Below, in pieces: positions 3,434 to 11,535 of a stretch of 12,497 bases of DNA. A model generated the notes under the pieces. It did not search any database, was not told the origin of the DNA, and was given only the letters and a program-made list of their open reading frames with translations. Each line of letters opens with the position of its first letter. The stretch's first letter is position 1. Origin of the DNA: Desulfobacteraceae bacterium UBA2230 (GTDB lineage: Bacteria; Desulfobacterota; Desulfobacteria; Desulfobacterales; Desulfosarcinaceae); NCBI GenBank assembly GCA_002348005.1, contig DDYQ01000035.1, positions 1 to 12,497 on the forward strand. Direction: 5' to 3'. The translations under genes were made by a program, and so were the position numbers.

Positions 3434-3615
3434 CGGACCACCTCCAGGTGAAAGAGGGCTGTAGGTAAGCGCATGTACCGTCCAGCCTTTGACGCCACGT
3501 TACGAAGTGAACGTCCCCGGATCGTCCCCGCCTGCGTCGCCGCGGGCGTCGCTTGTCCACAAAAAATGTTGAAAAGTCATTTTTTTGGAGCGACGGCGCG
3601 GGAAAGGAGGAGCGC
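3434..3615. promoter_or_regulatory. Divergent control region between acetyltransferase and SARP-hydrolase
   Basis: These 182 bp must carry promoters for both flanking genes. The minus-strand ribosome site lies at its left edge, and AAAGGAGG (3603-3610) at its right edge serves the regulator. A 5-bp dyad ACGTT (3497-3501) / AACGT (3510-3514) with an 8-base centre sits in the middle. An AT-rich patch near 3558-3588 contains TTGTCC and TTGAAA, but I find no convincing paired -10. SARP-type regulators usually bind direct repeats near the -35 region; no clear heptamer direct repeat is visible by eye. Confidence 0.35.
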
Positions 3616-5241
3616 ATGCCGCGCATGAAGCTGTTTCTGTTGGGACCACCGCACCTGGAGATCGACGGCCGTCCGCAGGCGATCTCCCTTCGGAAGGCAA
3701 TGGCGCTGCTGGTCTACCTGGCGGTCACCCGTCGGGCATATTCCCGGGACGAACTGGCCACCCTTTTCTGGCCCGAATGCGATCAGGCCACTGGACGGGC
3801 CGATCTGCGCCGTACCATGTACAAGCTAAAAGGCATCATAGGGGAAGGTTTTCTTCAGGCTGGTGGAGATCAGATTGCATTGTCCGGAGGGCAGCAGATC
3901 TGGCTCGATGTTCAGGCCTTTGAAGAAAAGGTCCGGGCCTGTCCACTTAACGTTCAGACGACAGCCCGCTTTGTGGATTGCGATGTGCTGCTGACCGAAG
4001 CCGTCGAGTTCTATACTGGTGATTTTATGGCTGGTTTTACACTGCCGGACTGCCCCGCCTTCGACGAGTGGCAGTTTTTCCAGCAGGAATCGCTGCGACA
4101 GGATCTGATCAGGGTGCTCGATGCGATTACGGCCAGTGCCGCGCAGGACGGGCGCTGGCAGCAGGCGTTGTACGCGGCCCGGCGCCGAGTGGCCCTGGAC
4201 GGCCTTAACGAATCGGCCCAGCGGCAATTGATGGAACTTTATTTTCAGAGCGGACAGAAAGCCGCGGCATTGCGCCAGTATGGGGAATGCGTCCGGGTGC
4301 TGCAGGCGGAGCTGGGCGCAACCCCCCAATCGGAGACCCGTGCGCTCCATGATCGCCTGTTGGCCAGCCACCCGCCCGAGCGGGCGCCGCAACGGCCGGC
4401 GCCTCCGCGCACCGACTACGTGCAAAGCGGCGCAGTTTACATCGCGCACCAGGTCATGGGCCGCGGCGTGCCGGACATTATCCTGGTCCCCGGCTTTGTC
4501 TCACACCTGGAGCATATCTGGAAAGAACCTCATCTGACCGGCTTTTTAAATGGACTGGCTTCCATGGGCCGCCTTATCCTTTTCGACAAACGCGGCATAG
4601 GGCTTTCAGACCGTTTGGGGTATGCACCCGGACTGGAGCAGACCTGCCAGGACATTGAGGCCGTGATGACGGCGGTCAAATCCAGAAGGGCGATACTGCT
4701 GGGCGTCTCGGAAGGCGGCCCCGCCAGCATGCTGTTCGCCGGAAGTCATCCGCAACGCGTTCAGGGGCTCATTCTCTATGGCACCTTGGCCAAAGGCACC
4801 CGCAGCAGCGACTATCCATTTGCACTGCGTCCCGATCAATACGACCGCTGGCAGGAGGAGATGCTGCGCGCCTGGGGCCGTCCGGTAGGCATCGAGGCCT
4901 TCGCTCCCAGCCGCTGCAATGACCCGGCGCTGCGCAGTTGGTGGGCCGAACTGTTGCGCCTTGCAGCCAGCCCGGGCAGCATGCGCCTGGTGCTTGAAGT
5001 GTTGCGCAATATCGACGTGCGAGCGCTCCTGCCGCACATTCGGGTGCCGGTGCTGGTCCTGCACCGCCGCGACGATTTGGCCATTCGCGTCGCGGCGGGA
5101 CGCTTCCTGGCCGGCCGGATTCCGGGAGCGCGGTATGTCGAGCTTGCGGGATCTGACCACTGGTGGTGGGTCGGGGACACATGGGCGATTCTGGACGAAA
5201 TCCAGAAATTCATCCGGACAGTGCCGACCAGCCCGGCCTGA
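3616..5241 (+). CDS. SARP/BTAD-type transcriptional regulator fused to an alpha/beta hydrolase
   Basis: A 541-residue two-part protein. Residues 4-100 form an OmpR-like winged helix of the SARP type (MKLFLLGPPHLEIDGRP, then RDELATLFWP and RADLRRTMYKLK). Residues about 101-250 form the BTAD helical-repeat domain (FYTGDFMAGF, then NESAQRQLMELYFQSGQKAA and YGECVRVLQAELG). After a Pro-rich linker (252-266) comes a full alpha/beta hydrolase (about 270-535). It has VPGFVSHLEHIWKE, DKRGIGLSDR, the nucleophile elbow GVSEGG (Ser365), an acid at Asp486/487 and His515 in GSDHWWWVGD, so the triad appears intact. These hydrolase motifs match those I know from hydrolase domains attached to some adenylate/guanylate cyclases. 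Start 3616 is chosen over 3553 because AAAGGAGG lies 5 bases upstream and family homology starts there. It probably acts as a DNA-binding regulator with a ligand-sensing or catalytic domain; the target is unknown, but the divergent acetyltransferase-decarboxylase unit is the obvious candidate. Confidence 0.88.
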   Translation: MPRMKLFLLGPPHLEIDGRPQAISLRKAMALLVYLAVTRRAYSRDELATLFWPECDQATGRADLRRTMYKLKGIIGEGFLQAGGDQIALSGGQQIWLDVQAFEEKVRACPLNVQTTARFVDCDVLLTEAVEFYTGDFMAGFTLPDCPAFDEWQFFQQESLRQDLIRVLDAITASAAQDGRWQQALYAARRRVALDGLNESAQRQLMELYFQSGQKAAALRQYGECVRVLQAELGATPQSETRALHDRLLASHPPERAPQRPAPPRTDYVQSGAVYIAHQVMGRGVPDIILVPGFVSHLEHIWKEPHLTGFLNGLASMGRLILFDKRGIGLSDRLGYAPGLEQTCQDIEAVMTAVKSRRAILLGVSEGGPASMLFAGSHPQRVQGLILYGTLAKGTRSSDYPFALRPDQYDRWQEEMLRAWGRPVGIEAFAPSRCNDPALRSWWAELLRLAASPGSMRLVLEVLRNIDVRALLPHIRVPVLVLHRRDDLAIRVAAGRFLAGRIPGARYVELAGSDHWWWVGDTWAILDEIQKFIRTVPTSPA

Positions 5242-6667: not shown

Positions 6668-9600
6668 TCATTGATTGATCGGCTGATACTCAACGCGGGT
6701 ATACTTCGGCTGCTGCGCATCCTCCTTTGTCTGTTTGCCTTTAACGGGGGGAACTTCACTTTTTGGAGCCGATCGGAGCCGTGCGATTTGTTCGCCGTAC
6801 TTCTTCTCCAAAGACTTGAGAGCCAGCTGGTGTTCTTTTTGCGCTGCAGCCAAAAGCTGTTCCATCTGTTTTTGAGCCGTTTCAAGAACTGATTTCTTCT
6901 CCAGCTCTGCACGCTTAAGGGATTCAAGTTCCTCTTGTTTCGCCAGTCTGGCCTGTTTGACGGCTTCTTCGCTTTGAACCTGCAGCCGGGCGATTTTGTT
7001 CTCGAACTCCTGACGCATCTGCTGAAGTGCTTTTTGCGCTTCCTCGGTCGCTTTTCGCTTTATGGCCGCAATTTCATCCTTTTTTACGGATTGAAGCTGT
7101 TCAATCTGTTCGCAGAATTTCTTTTCAAGTGAAGCAAGCGTACGCTGATGGTTCTGTTCAGCCTTATTGATTTTGTCCTCCAACTGTTTCTGCACCGATG
7201 TGATTGCCGTCTGTTTGTCCAGCTCAGCCTGCTGTATGGCGGTTGCGTGCACACTTTTCAGCTGAGCGAGTTGGCTCTCGAATTGCTGATACGCTTGCTG
7301 GTGCGTCTGCTGGGAGATCTCGGCCACCTTCCGATGAAGCGCATCGACCTCGGTCTTCTTATCAGACTGCAGCCGTGCGATCTGCTCGCTATATGTTGTA
7401 TCAAGCAGCTTAATGGCGTTGCGGTGGTCTGCCGCGGCCTGGGCGATCTTTTCCTCCGCCCGCCGGCGAGTGTTCTCGATTTCGGCCTGCTTGCTCCGGG
7501 CAGCCTGCTTCAATGCCTCAACCTGCTGGCCCTGCATTTGCTCAATCCTGGATTCTAATTCCGCGCGTTCCTGCTGCACAGCCTGTCTGGTCTCCTCGCT
7601 CGCCCTGAGTTTGAAGGCTTCAAGTTCGGCTTTTTTATCCGCCTGGAGACGAGCGATCTGTTCGCTGTGCCGGTTTTTCAGATCCTCGAGCGTGCTCTGG
7701 TGGGCGCGCTCGGCCCGGTTCAGTTTGTCCTCCGTTTGTTTTAGAAACAATTCGATTTCGGCCTGTTTGCCCTGTTCCGTCAGCTTATCCCGTTTAGCCT
7801 GCTTCAAGTCTTCGGCGTGCTGGTCCTGCAGCCGGGCGATTCTGGACGCAAGTTCTGCACGGTGTTGCTCCCGGGCCTGCTTTATCTCCTCGGCCGCCTG
7901 GCGTTTAAGCGCCGCGATTTCAGTATTCTGGTCGGACTGGAGCCGCGCAATTTGTTCGGCGTGGCGGTTCTGCAGGTCGTCGAGGGCATGCTGGCGGTCG
8001 TGTTCGGCTTGAATTCGTTTTTGCTCCGCCTGTTTTCGGAACGTTTCGAATTCCGCCTCCTTTTCCAGTTGCGCCTGCTTTGAGGTTTCAACCTGCTCCT
8101 GCAACCGGGCGATTCTGGACGCCAGTTCCGCGCCGTTTTGCTCCCGGGCCTGCTTTATCTCCTCGGCCGCCTGGTGTTTAAGCGCCGCGATTTCAGTATT
8201 CTGATCGGACTGGAGCCGTGCGATCTGTTCGGCGTGGCGGTTCTGCAGGTCGTCGAGGGCGCGCTGGCGGGCGTGCTCCACCTGTTTCCGGAATGCTTCA
8301 ACTTCCGCCTGCTTTTGCAGCTGCGCCTGTTCTAAGGCTTCGGCGTGCTGCTCCTGCAGCCGGGCGATTCTGGACGCCAGTTCCGCGCTGTTTTGCTCCC
8401 GGGCCTGCTTCATCTCCTCGGCCGCCTGGTGTTTAAGCGCCGCGATTTCAGTATTCTGGTCGGACTGGAGCCGTGCGATCTGTTCGGCGTGGCGGTTCTG
8501 CAGGTCTTCGAGGGCGTGCTGGTGGTCGTGCTCGGCCTGGATCCGTTTTTGCTCCGCCTGTTCCCGGAACGTTTCGAATTCCGTCTGCTTTTCCAGTTGC
8601 GCCTGCTTTATAGCTTCGGCGTGCTGGTCCTGCAGCCGAGTGATACTGGATGCAAGCTCCGCACGGTTCTGCTCCAGGACCCGCTGGGTCTCCTCGACCG
8701 CCTTCCGGTTAACGGCCACAATTTCGGCGATATTTTCGGACCGCAGACGTACGACCTGTTCGGCGTGTCGGTCTTGAAGGTCATCGAGGGCGCGCTGGTG
8801 GTCGTGCTCGGCCCGGATCCGTTTTTGCTCCGCCTGTTCCCGGAACGCTTCGAACTCCGCTTGTTTTTCCAGTTGCGCCTGCTTTAGGGCCTGGGCATGC
8901 TGGTCCCGCAGTCGGGCAATTTCAGATTCAAATTCCTGGCGTGCTCGCTGAAGCGATTGCTGTTCCAGGCTCAGCATCTCTGCGACGCGCTCAGCTTCCT
9001 GGCTGGAATTCTTCTCCAGAAGATCATAACGCTTTTGCAGCTCGGCGATCTTCTGCTGATGCTCATGAACAACCTCTTCGTTCTGTTTTTGAGCCTGGCT
9101 CAATTTCCTTCTGAGACCTGACAGCTGATCAGTATAATCTCTGATTCTGCCGTTGGCGGCGACAATTTCATGATTGCTGTCGCAAAGCTTTTCAGTGATG
9201 CGGCTTATCTCCAGGTCTTTTTGGAGTATGATTTCCCGAAGCTTGATAAAGTCCTTGGAAAAAGGCGAGGACCTGGCATCGCGAAGCGCCTCATCCAACT
9301 GATGACGCAATTTAAAAATATCGGCCTGTTGTTCAGCAAGACGGTGCTCCAGGCCGGAGTTGGCGTTCGCAGAATGCCATACCGGCCTGTGGGTCGTCTC
9401 ATTTGACGCGCCCGTACTGGAAAGAATCTCACCACGACTGAGTGTCTGCTCCGAAGCATCACGGCTGGGGGCTTCGACAGCGGACGCCTCCGAGTTGGCT
9501 GAGTCTGAGGTTTCGGACGAATCGGCAGAACGCAGCTTCGGCGGATCCGAACCGTCGCTCTGTGAAGTTCTTAGGCTGAGGCTCTCGCGGGGCTGGGCGG

Positions 9601-9997
9601 GCAGTGGTCTGATGCGTGGCCCCAGGCCTATCGCCTCATCGAGCGTCCGCAGGAGATCGTCTCCGGTTAAAGCTCTTTTATCGAGGTAAAGGTCCGCATG
9701 CAGGCGTGACTTCCCATGTAAATTGAAATCATGCGGTGAAGGTGTGGCGGAGGTGAGAATGATAAACCCCTTTTTCCCCACCGCCATTCTGGCTTTGTTG
9801 CACAGTGTAAAACCGGCCGCGTCCGGCAGGTCCGCAGAGATAAATATTACTTCAGGATCGAGTATCTTTAGCGTTTGTAGTGTATCGGGTTCTGACACGG
9901 CCGGGCGAATATCAAATTCGTGCACACCCAGTGAGCTTTGAAGGAGGGCAAGAAAATTCTTGTCATCATCGAAAACTAATACGCGCCGTGTGGCCAT
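6668..9997 (-). CDS. Pseudo-receiver protein with long repetitive coiled coil (FrzS/AglZ-like architecture)
   Basis: A 1109-residue soluble protein with no signal peptide or membrane helix. Residues 5-122 form a CheY-like receiver: VLVFDDD supplies the acidic pocket (Asp10-12), FIILTSA keeps the conserved Thr82, and YLDK keeps Lys107. However, the phospho-acceptor position, four residues before the LP of SADLPDAAG, is Ser54 rather than Asp, so phosphorylation is not expected. Residues about 135-205 are a Ser-rich disordered linker. From about 215 to 1085 the protein is heptad-patterned coiled coil rich in Gln, Glu, Ala, Lys and Arg, with eight tandem repeats of about 92 residues from 355. The tail (1080-1109) is Pro/Lys-rich. 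Myxococcus FrzS and AglZ, polarity/gliding proteins, share this non-canonical-receiver-plus-coiled-coil plan; orthology is not shown. The start at 9997 has AGGAGT 5 bases upstream. It ends a three-gene minus-strand run, 40 bp after the preceding gene. Confidence 0.85.
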   Translation of the reverse strand: MATRRVLVFDDDKNFLALLQSSLGVHEFDIRPAVSEPDTLQTLKILDPEVIFISADLPDAAGFTLCNKARMAVGKKGFIILTSATPSPHDFNLHGKSRLHADLYLDKRALTGDDLLRTLDEAIGLGPRIRPLPAQPRESLSLRTSQSDGSDPPKLRSADSSETSDSANSEASAVEAPSRDASEQTLSRGEILSSTGASNETTHRPVWHSANANSGLEHRLAEQQADIFKLRHQLDEALRDARSSPFSKDFIKLREIILQKDLEISRITEKLCDSNHEIVAANGRIRDYTDQLSGLRRKLSQAQKQNEEVVHEHQQKIAELQKRYDLLEKNSSQEAERVAEMLSLEQQSLQRARQEFESEIARLRDQHAQALKQAQLEKQAEFEAFREQAEQKRIRAEHDHQRALDDLQDRHAEQVVRLRSENIAEIVAVNRKAVEETQRVLEQNRAELASSITRLQDQHAEAIKQAQLEKQTEFETFREQAEQKRIQAEHDHQHALEDLQNRHAEQIARLQSDQNTEIAALKHQAAEEMKQAREQNSAELASRIARLQEQHAEALEQAQLQKQAEVEAFRKQVEHARQRALDDLQNRHAEQIARLQSDQNTEIAALKHQAAEEIKQAREQNGAELASRIARLQEQVETSKQAQLEKEAEFETFRKQAEQKRIQAEHDRQHALDDLQNRHAEQIARLQSDQNTEIAALKRQAAEEIKQAREQHRAELASRIARLQDQHAEDLKQAKRDKLTEQGKQAEIELFLKQTEDKLNRAERAHQSTLEDLKNRHSEQIARLQADKKAELEAFKLRASEETRQAVQQERAELESRIEQMQGQQVEALKQAARSKQAEIENTRRRAEEKIAQAAADHRNAIKLLDTTYSEQIARLQSDKKTEVDALHRKVAEISQQTHQQAYQQFESQLAQLKSVHATAIQQAELDKQTAITSVQKQLEDKINKAEQNHQRTLASLEKKFCEQIEQLQSVKKDEIAAIKRKATEEAQKALQQMRQEFENKIARLQVQSEEAVKQARLAKQEELESLKRAELEKKSVLETAQKQMEQLLAAAQKEHQLALKSLEKKYGEQIARLRSAPKSEVPPVKGKQTKEDAQQPKYTRVEYQPINQ
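6671..8935 (-). repeat. Eight tandem ~92-codon coiled-coil repeats within the pseudo-receiver gene
   Basis: Aligning the translation on (R/Q)-(A/Q)-E-(L/F)-x-S-x-(I/L)-x-x-(L/M)-(Q/R) gives eight units. They begin at residues 355, 447, 539, 624, 715, 813, 905 and 997, at genomic 8935, 8659, 8383, 8128, 7855, 7561, 7285 and 7009 reading leftward. Lengths are 92, 92, 85, 91, 98, 92 and 92 residues, with the last running into the tail. Each unit has (N/D)RHAEQIARLQS-like and AEE-KQAREQ-like segments. Units 2-4 are nearly identical in DNA: GCCGCGATTTCAGTATTCTG recurs at 7911, 8184 and 8439. Units 5-8 are more diverged. Unit 3 lacks exactly seven residues, one heptad, relative to unit 2. Confidence 0.88.
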
Positions 9998-10037
9998 TGA
10001 TCACTCCTGTCGGAACCTAGCCCGGATTAGTTTTTCT

Positions 10038-10784
10038 TCAACAATGCGCGACCGCTTTTTTTTGTTTCTTTTCAGGAGGGTTGCCACGCATGTTCTCAGT
10101 ATTCATTCGCTGTGGCTTTCTCGGCGAAATTTCCAGGCGGTCGTCCATCGTCACCAGCAGCACCGCCGGAATGACGTCTTCCATCTGCTTTCGTTTGTCG
10201 AAAAAAGCATTTCGAATGGCCGTGGCATGGATAGCGACTTCTTCCTGGTCGGTGTTACCCTGGCCTTCCAGGACGGACAAATTATCCAGAATTTCCAAAA
10301 TGACCCTGTTCAGAGGATCATCCTGGCCGTTTTCTTTTTTCAGATGCTTGCCGAGTACATTCAGATCCGCGATGCTGAGCGGGTAAATGCGGTACCCGTC
10401 TTTGGGTGAGCTGTAAACAGATTGAAGGACCCCCAGGATGACGGAAAGATTCTTGGAATAGATGCCCCCCTTGTGCCATTTGGTCATCATGGCGAAAATC
10501 CGGTTGACGATGAATTTATTGGGTTGAACGGGCGACAGCATCAGAAAGGGATCCCGATCGCCGATCAGCGCATCGATCACCCAGTGGTTTTCGATTTCCA
10601 GCATTTTCAGGAAAACAGGATAGTTTTCCGGCGTAATGCCGATGCTGCTGAGAAACTTGGCATAAGTGACCGCCGCCTCAACCGATTCCGTCGTCCGGCA
10701 CGCAAATATCCCCTGCAGCAGGCTCGTTTCGATCTCGATGATCCGGGAATCGTCCCATTGCTCTTCATAATCCGCTAGTGTCAT
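10038..10784 (-). CDS. Uncharacterised protein, second of two tandem paralogues
   Basis: I do not recognise this 248-residue family. The protein is soluble, with no signal peptide, membrane helix or nucleotide-binding loop visible. It aligns without gaps to its upstream neighbour over about 200 residues, roughly 60% identical by hand count over the first 170. Shared blocks are ENYPVFLKMLEIENHW (53-68), LIGDRDPF (73-80), TKWHKGGIY (101-109), VILGVLQ (115-121), YSSPKDGY (124-131), LSIAD (136-140) and GQDDP (153-157). It differs in its C-terminal tail, which is extended, basic and ends EKKQKKAVAHC. The start at 10784 is preferred over 10802 because GAGGAGG lies between the two and serves the downstream ATG. 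It is 40 bp upstream of the pseudo-receiver gene and 64 bp downstream of its paralogue, so the three are probably co-transcribed. Confidence 0.8.
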   Translation of the reverse strand: MTLADYEEQWDDSRIIEIETSLLQGIFACRTTESVEAAVTYAKFLSSIGITPENYPVFLKMLEIENHWVIDALIGDRDPFLMLSPVQPNKFIVNRIFAMMTKWHKGGIYSKNLSVILGVLQSVYSSPKDGYRIYPLSIADLNVLGKHLKKENGQDDPLNRVILEILDNLSVLEGQGNTDQEEVAIHATAIRNAFFDKRKQMEDVIPAVLLVTMDDRLEISPRKPQRMNTENMRGNPPEKKQKKAVAHC

Positions 10785-10848
10785 ACCGCCTCCTCGACGC
10801 AATCAATATGGCTGTGTTAACAGTAGTAGTCGAACACCACCCTGGACG

Positions 10849-11535
10849 TCAGTCCGCAAAAAGTTCAACCGGCGGTGTTTCCTGGTCAAGGTAATTGCCC
10901 CTGACCATCAGAACCTGGGGGATGCAGTCTTCCAGTATCTTTGTATTGTCGAAGAAGTTCCCCCTTATCTTCATGGCCTGGCGGGCGACGCCTTCCATCG
11001 ATTCGTCCCACTGCAATCCTTCCAGCAATCCGATTTTTTCGAGAATGTCCAGTATGCATCTGTTCTGTGGATCATCCTGGCCTTTTTCCTGCTCGAGGTG
11101 CTTGCCAAGATTGTCAACATCCGCGATGCTCAACTGGTAGATTTTGTATCCGTCCTTGGGTGAACTGTAAGCGTTCTGGAGGACGCCCAGGACGATGGCG
11201 CGTGTCTTCGGGTAGATTCCACCCGCTCGCCACTTGGTCAGCAATTTAAAAGATTTTGAAACCGTGTAACGATTGGGCGGGATTGTGGAGAGAAGCAAAA
11301 ACGGGTCCCGGTCTCCTATCAGTTCATCCAGCACCCAGTGGTTTTCGATTTCCAGCATTTTGAGAAAAAGCGGATAGTTCTCTGAAGTTAAGCCCGACAT
11401 CCGCAGAAAGCGCGCATAACTTACAGCCGCCTCGACAGCCTCGGGGGTTCGGGCAGCCATCAACTGTTGGAGAATCCTATTCTCCACGATCAGAATGTTG
11501 TCCCTCGTCCAGACCTCATCTTTCTTATTTACCAT
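10849..11535 (-). CDS. Uncharacterised protein, first of two tandem paralogues
   Basis: A 228-residue soluble protein of a family I do not recognise. An amphipathic N-terminal part (ILIVENRILQQLMAARTPEA, 14-33) leads into the block shared with its neighbour: ENYPLFLKMLEIENHW (52-67), LIGDRDPF (72-79), TKWRAGGIY (100-108), VLGVLQ (115-120), YSSPKDGY (123-130), LSIADV (135-140) and GQDDPQNR (152-159). Several blocks are charged and near-invariant between the copies, suggesting a binding surface. A weaker match near the end (LEDCIPQVLMV, 201-211) aligns with EDVIPAVLLV in the paralogue. The tail is short and acidic, unlike the basic tail of the paralogue. A good purine-rich site (AGAGGAAAGG) precedes the start at 11535. 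It is the first gene of the three-gene run leading to the pseudo-receiver protein and has a repeat-containing upstream region. Confidence 0.8.
   Translation of the reverse strand: MVNKKDEVWTRDNILIVENRILQQLMAARTPEAVEAAVSYARFLRMSGLTSENYPLFLKMLEIENHWVLDELIGDRDPFLLLSTIPPNRYTVSKSFKLLTKWRAGGIYPKTRAIVLGVLQNAYSSPKDGYKIYQLSIADVDNLGKHLEQEKGQDDPQNRCILDILEKIGLLEGLQWDESMEGVARQAMKIRGNFFDNTKILEDCIPQVLMVRGNYLDQETPPVELFAD

Follow-up and report, generated by a model that had tools for sequence, protein, structure and literature searches.

In the 12,497-nucleotide stretch of contig DDYQ01000035.1 from Desulfobacteraceae bacterium UBA2230 that we analysed (hereafter the window), three neighbouring minus-strand genes, termed here A, B and R, form a real module, and the A-B pair is its core. 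A (10849..11535, 228 residues), the upstream paralogue, and B (10038..10802, 254 residues from a TTG, with an alternative ATG at 10784), the downstream one, belong to a family that has neither a name nor an entry in the four family libraries searched; R (6668..9997, 1109 residues) combines a FrzS-like pseudo-receiver with a long coil. The observations concern the genes themselves, their conservation, linkage and co-occurrence, and the FrzS-type signature of R. The explanation that suits them best, which in our judgement is about as apt to fail as to hold, is that A and B would be the armadillo-like adaptor core of a cytoplasmic signalling scaffold, coupled to R in two phyla and rewired in the spirochaetes.

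The A-B pair and its relatives

All three open reading frames described in the first-pass annotation were found, with the gaps given there: 40 bp between R and B, and 64 bp between A and B provided that B begins at ATG 10784. Conservation of the three genes in other genomes rules out chance reading frames. A and B had been called paralogues of an unrecognised family, and both parts of that description stand: they share 58% identity over 206 residues (E 2e-88), and searches of Pfam, NCBIfam, PHROGs and PADLOC gave no significant match for either. Pfam, PHROGs and PADLOC returned nothing at E<=1, tetratricopeptide repeat (TPR) motifs thus being absent from both proteins in the Pfam scan, and NCBIfam gave A just one 12-bit cyaB row. 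B ends in a short basic tail. A search of a protein set clustered at 90% identity gave 1600 homologues of A at E<=0.001, including a 90% relative labelled Desulfobacteraceae; among the 120 listed, all those with a name are a "hypothetical protein". No homologue was found in phage and plasmid records by tblastn, and the literature search returned no paper that could be tied to the pair. A weakly supported structural model predicts an all-helical, armadillo-like fold for A. As to armadillo/HEAT repeat proteins such as the FH3 region of mDia1 and importin-alpha, comparison of the A model with known structures gave no significant Foldseek match, identity was about 10%, and no Pfam repeat family was matched.

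Relatives were collected by one scan of genome contigs with two exact peptide patterns, which gave 19 loci in 18 genomes. These belong to Desulfobacterota, Acidobacteriota (one Vicinamibacteria bin included) and Spirochaetota, together with one bin labelled Proteobacteria and one unlabelled (L013), the latter judged spirochaete-type by its neighbour genes. Exactly two family members, side by side, are present in 13 of the 18 genomes; two more, G014 and G015, have a fragment in addition to a pair (which is cut in G014), and in G016, G017 and G018 a lone family match runs into the contig end. A lies directly upstream of B on the same strand in all 16 loci that hold both, window included. The family is rare and patchy in the phylum samples. 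It was found in 1 of 395 Desulfobacterota and 1 of 396 Acidobacteriota genomes, in each case the centre genome (with one extra match each, at E 0.006 and E 0.003, respectively), and in 11 of 296 Spirochaetota genomes, centre genome included; it occurs in 1 of 6 within the family of G009 and in 3 of 4 within that of G005.

In a maximum-likelihood tree of 65 family members, A and B fall into separate clades, each of which contains Spirochaetota, Acidobacteriota and Desulfobacterota groups; the two clades are old. The inner A and B clades (14 rows each) are both supported at 100/98, and the A and B of the window both group with Desulfobacterota (88/66 and 90/74, respectively). The wider joins with spirochaete group 2, that is, the ten other (non-centre) genomes of the Spirochaetota sample, have support of 99/95 for A and 85/85 for B; among the remaining paralogues, the tree program flags long branches. 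Very distant, short family members were also seen at L076:8858-9424 and L077:8185-8754, in two spirochaete genomes that hold other members too.

RecA was used for comparison in 12 of the 18 genomes (G001, G008, G014, G016, G017 and G018 were omitted, RecA or A being missing or cut; G011, the genome of L013, was placed with the spirochaetes by A, B and neighbours). Mean identity between groups is 71.4% for A, 70.2% for B and 71.5% for the RecA core (49 genome pairs), and within groups 84.8%, 83.2% and 86.4%, respectively (17 pairs). The RecA-like rate and the trees, which follow the phyla, are easier to reconcile with ancient inheritance followed by many losses, or with ancient transfers, than with a recent sweep. 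Although it evolves as slowly as RecA, the pair occurs in a small number of genomes; the genes around it point to a regulated assembly.

A FrzS-type pseudo-receiver with a long coil

R had been described as a non-canonical receiver with a repetitive coil, resembling FrzS in its domain plan; both points hold, and the likeness extends beyond the plan. The receiver domain (residues 1-130, minus strand 9607..9997) scores 26.4 bits with Pfam Response_reg against a cut-off of 30.2. Its phospho-acceptor site carries Ser in the window R; Ser or Ala occupies it in each of the 7 aligned R proteins and in all 11 distinct R-like receivers from the loci that were fetched. A profile of the R receiver family has FrzS (2gkg) as its top PDB match (E 1.6e-15), with yycF near behind (4.4e-15), so the ranking by itself is weak; the window domain alone also gives FrzS first (E 7e-5). 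Residues H94 and Y104, invariant in the 7 R proteins, align with His92 and Tyr102 of FrzS, on the assumption of an inferred 3-residue offset in the 2gkg chain numbering, which suits both residues. The control set comprised receivers from the fetched loci (36 rows, 31 distinct; rows covering <90 of the 130 positions were dropped uncounted, and further genome-wide matches yielded no locus and so are not in the set). The His is present in 11 of 11 distinct Asp-less and in 2 of 20 distinct Asp-bearing receivers, with a gap in 3 of the 20. The Tyr occurs in all 20 Asp-bearing receivers and, being present in every control receiver, has no discriminating power.

Receiver and coil are joined by a linker motif (residues 238-262, minus strand 9212..9286) with SPFS at residues 244-247, which may be a docking motif. 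All 7 aligned R proteins contain SPFS, and the fuller SSPFS-xDF-LRE hinge occurs in 8 A-B genomes and the window, compared with none of 9 weaker receiver rows elsewhere. These weaker FrzS-like receivers of other genomes show the pseudo-receiver signature in 8 of the 9 rows and the SPFS linker in none. Since they share the signature but lack the linker, R is, by its sequence, a new subgroup of FrzS-type proteins. With R residues 1-290 as query, 3 proteins were obtained at E<=0.001.

The coil (minus strand 6743..9211) has a hydrophobic periodicity of 3.66 residues, with a power of 5.56 against a shuffled 95th percentile of 1.24. The same periodicity analysis, which is not a coiled-coil predictor, placed a peak above shuffles at 3.50-3.68 in 9 of 9 R proteins: 3.63-3.68 in seven, 3.50 in L001 and 3.54 in L142. 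The spacing is nearer to a hendecad than to a heptad. A 92-residue internal repeat of the window coil (26% self-identity at lag 92 against a mean of about 10% over lags) is encoded by a 276-bp tandem repeat (minus strand 8274..8911, 2.3 copies according to TRF).

Linkage of R and the other neighbourhoods of A-B

The trio is not rarely adjacent. Of the 9 non-spirochaete loci that can be assessed, counting the window, 7 have R beside A-B (L017 and L019 are truncated and thus outside the nine). R lies 0.2-1.1 kb from B on the same strand in L004, L005, L014 and L015 and on the opposite strand in L001 and L007. It is not near A-B in L002, where 0.46 kb upstream of the A frame and 9 kb downstream of B could be seen, or in L003. 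Genome-wide, the top R match is the A-B neighbour in 6 genomes (G001, G003, G004, G006, G009 and G010). Copies away from A-B occur in G012 (E 2.6e-59, 5.8e-56 and a partial copy), and a weaker R with the SPFS linker lies elsewhere in G002 (E 2.6e-25). Among 297 Acidobacteriota and 297 Desulfobacterota genomes sampled, with the best 7 candidates scored per genome, the only ones with R at E<1e-50 were the two centre genomes, G001 and G009, both of which have A-B; three further Acidobacteriota and four further Desulfobacterota genomes gave weaker matches (E 9e-27 to 1e-18). An A homologue (P0034) and an R homologue (P0183) perhaps share a contig, a longest contig of 88633 bases being named for both.

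The linkage bears on whether R merely hitchhikes next to A-B and is functionally unconnected with the pair, which we consider very improbable: its non-adjacency in L002 and L003 and the probably separate transcription units of the relatives would agree with that, but the two co-occur genome-wide, the Acidobacteriota and Desulfobacterota samples included, and their adjacency is retained in both orientations across different phyla. In the spirochaetes, R was found in none of 9 spirochaete-type loci from the peptide-pattern scan, some of them cut, and the spirochaete genomes, like G017 and G018, gave no R match better than about 1e-14. The proposal in the first-pass annotation that the paralogues partner the coiled coil, drawn from gene order, agrees with the adjacency outside the spirochaetes; A-B is not tied to R everywhere.

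A neighbourhood link to an MglB-like gene, named there as something that would lend support, did not materialise. Roadblock genes (PF03259, MglB-type) are present in 10 of the 18 genomes, including all 8 that bear R, and in 0 of the 8 spirochaete-type genomes; in 0 of the 8 R-bearing genomes is the gene linked to A-B, lying instead on other contigs or, in G009, 325 kb away (MglA was not searched for). This pattern, together with the FrzS-type signature of R, could be taken to mean that A, B and R together constitute a polarity module of the FrzS/SgmX kind, which positions type IV pili or gliding machinery and in which A-B replaces the TPR protein SgmX. We regard that as unlikely. Roadblock presence follows phylum and is thus confounded, G017 and G018 have a roadblock gene with no detected R, and with no roadblock gene near A-B, and A-B retained in spirochaetes without R, a polarity role is only one reading.

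Spirochaete A-B genes have neighbours of other kinds. In group 1 the order is a HATPase_c_2 protein, a small basic protein, A, B, an uncharacterised 358-residue protein, STAS, an alpha/beta hydrolase and STAS (L006 8774-14069; domains were scanned in L006 and the other loci assigned by similarity, including the first hydrolase and STAS genes of L013). The array is complete in L006, L008, L009, L010 and L013 and partial in L011, L012, L016 and L018. The 358-residue protein looks internally duplicated, and comparison of its model with known folds gave no match. Upstream of the array in L006 lie SpoIIE (about 3.5 kb away) and a ParA/MinD-type ATPase, the latter together with an uncharacterised 148-residue protein at 7529-8730; the ATPase family occurs in 5 loci. 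In group 2, A and B are side by side in 8 of the 10 genomes, with two or three extra members. Seven loci carry a PPP-type metallophosphatase (scanned in L069) along with its neighbour, termed F6, and 4 carry kinase-like proteins, which score above the Pfam cut-off in L073 and L075 and are weak or assigned by similarity in L069 and L070. Tandem arrays of A/B-family paralogues were seen in L069, L070, L071, L072, L075, L079 and L080; those of L069-L075 come with the PPP-type phosphatase family and F6, an uncharacterised protein of 300 residues. Three related proteins of ~600 residues stand beside arrays (L069:11433-13277, L071:12873-14708, L072:6627-8402), with no significant Pfam match.

Outside the spirochaetes, A-B is followed by a TPR-Hanks kinase in L003, a GGDEF protein lies upstream of A in L001, and an FHA-GAF-SpoIIE phosphatase (L007:14922-16598) is encoded on the same strand as R, ~100 bp away. 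Diverse signalling genes thus recur beside A-B, a matter of proximity without a background rate, in genomes where such genes are common. The group 1 array with SpoIIE near by, the phosphatase and kinase-like genes of group 2, and the kinase of L003 and phosphatase of L007 would all suit a different account, in which A-B is a general effector of Ser/Thr phospho-signalling (a partner-switching component or a kinase/phosphatase substrate), R is one lineage's replacement input, and nothing about the system is polar or cytoskeletal. We treat this as a serious but rather doubtful possibility. Partner-switching genes (HATPase kinase, STAS, SpoIIE), present in the spirochaete relatives, were not found in the window by Pfam scan, and no kinase, phosphatase or STAS was recognised beside A-B there or among the scanned neighbours of L004, L005, L014 and L015, where some neighbours were unscanned; the argument is one of gene proximity, and no phosphosite is known.

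The remaining window genes, according to the Pfam scan, encode SDR, PLP decarboxylase, GNAT, BTAD-hydrolase, MFS and HpcH/HpaI lyase proteins and look unrelated to A-B-R. The BTAD-hydrolase (3553-5241, plus strand) is a single 562-residue protein in which a BTAD transcriptional-activator domain is fused to an alpha/beta hydrolase.

Proposed mechanism and known systems

In the adaptor-core explanation that we prefer, A and B would be two small, tightly linked helical-repeat adaptors of armadillo-like build at the centre of a cytoplasmic signalling scaffold; judging from the model, they probably act as a pair of repeat adaptors that each lineage connects to signalling of its own, which in the window is a FrzS-type scaffold. 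The core would be coupled to R, as scaffold and input, in Desulfobacterota and Acidobacteriota. The pseudo-receiver, which lacks a phospho-acceptor, probably switches via the His/Tyr pair on its output face, as in FrzS, while the long coil would multimerise and position the assembly within the cell. As partners of R, A and B would dock on it, perhaps at the conserved hinge that joins its receiver to its coil, and would then relay its state to a putative client. Spirochaetes would connect this core either to partner-switching proteins (HATPase kinase, STAS, SpoIIE phosphatase) or to a PPP phosphatase and a Ser/Thr kinase. These three natural wirings make the function of the core testable by comparison. 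More speculatively, and with less confidence than we place in the adaptor core, A-B may be an undescribed, RecA-conserved heteromeric armadillo-like switch, wired by different phyla to different inputs (FrzS-type scaffold, partner-switching, Hanks kinase plus PPP phosphatase), with R docking via the SSPFS hinge; if so, it would be a bacterial counterpart of the eukaryotic armadillo signalling hubs.

Among known systems, the partner-switching modules (SpoIIAB/RsbW kinase, STAS, SpoIIE) supply the gene types that flank A-B in spirochaete group 1, none of which was recognised in the window, and the literature search found no paper tying A-B to them. AglZ of Myxococcus xanthus has a receiver-like domain and a very long coiled coil; its likeness to R comes from this general description rather than from compared sequences, and the Pfam scan of the window recognised no glt/agl genes. 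The closest likeness is to FrzS of M. xanthus, the top PDB match, which like R has no phospho-Asp, carries the equivalent His92 and Tyr102, and has an N-terminal receiver and a C-terminal coil. Its His92 and Tyr102 are described as both required for motility and leading-pole localisation, and its coil as 258 residues long (PMC1974792). According to more recent accounts, the FrzS pseudo-receiver binds the TPR protein SgmX and the coil suffices for polar localisation (PMC11580455, PMC12632262), and the control of such pseudo-receivers is called a mystery in one of them (PMC12632262). R differs in its longer coil with the 92-residue repeat, in being encoded beside A-B, which show no TPR, and in its extra SSPFS-type linker, FrzS having been compared by its receiver chain alone (PDB), which leaves the linker region outside the comparison. 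By analogy, R could act like FrzS with A-B taking the partner role, which makes A-B a candidate partner family for FrzS-type pseudo-receivers outside Myxococcus.
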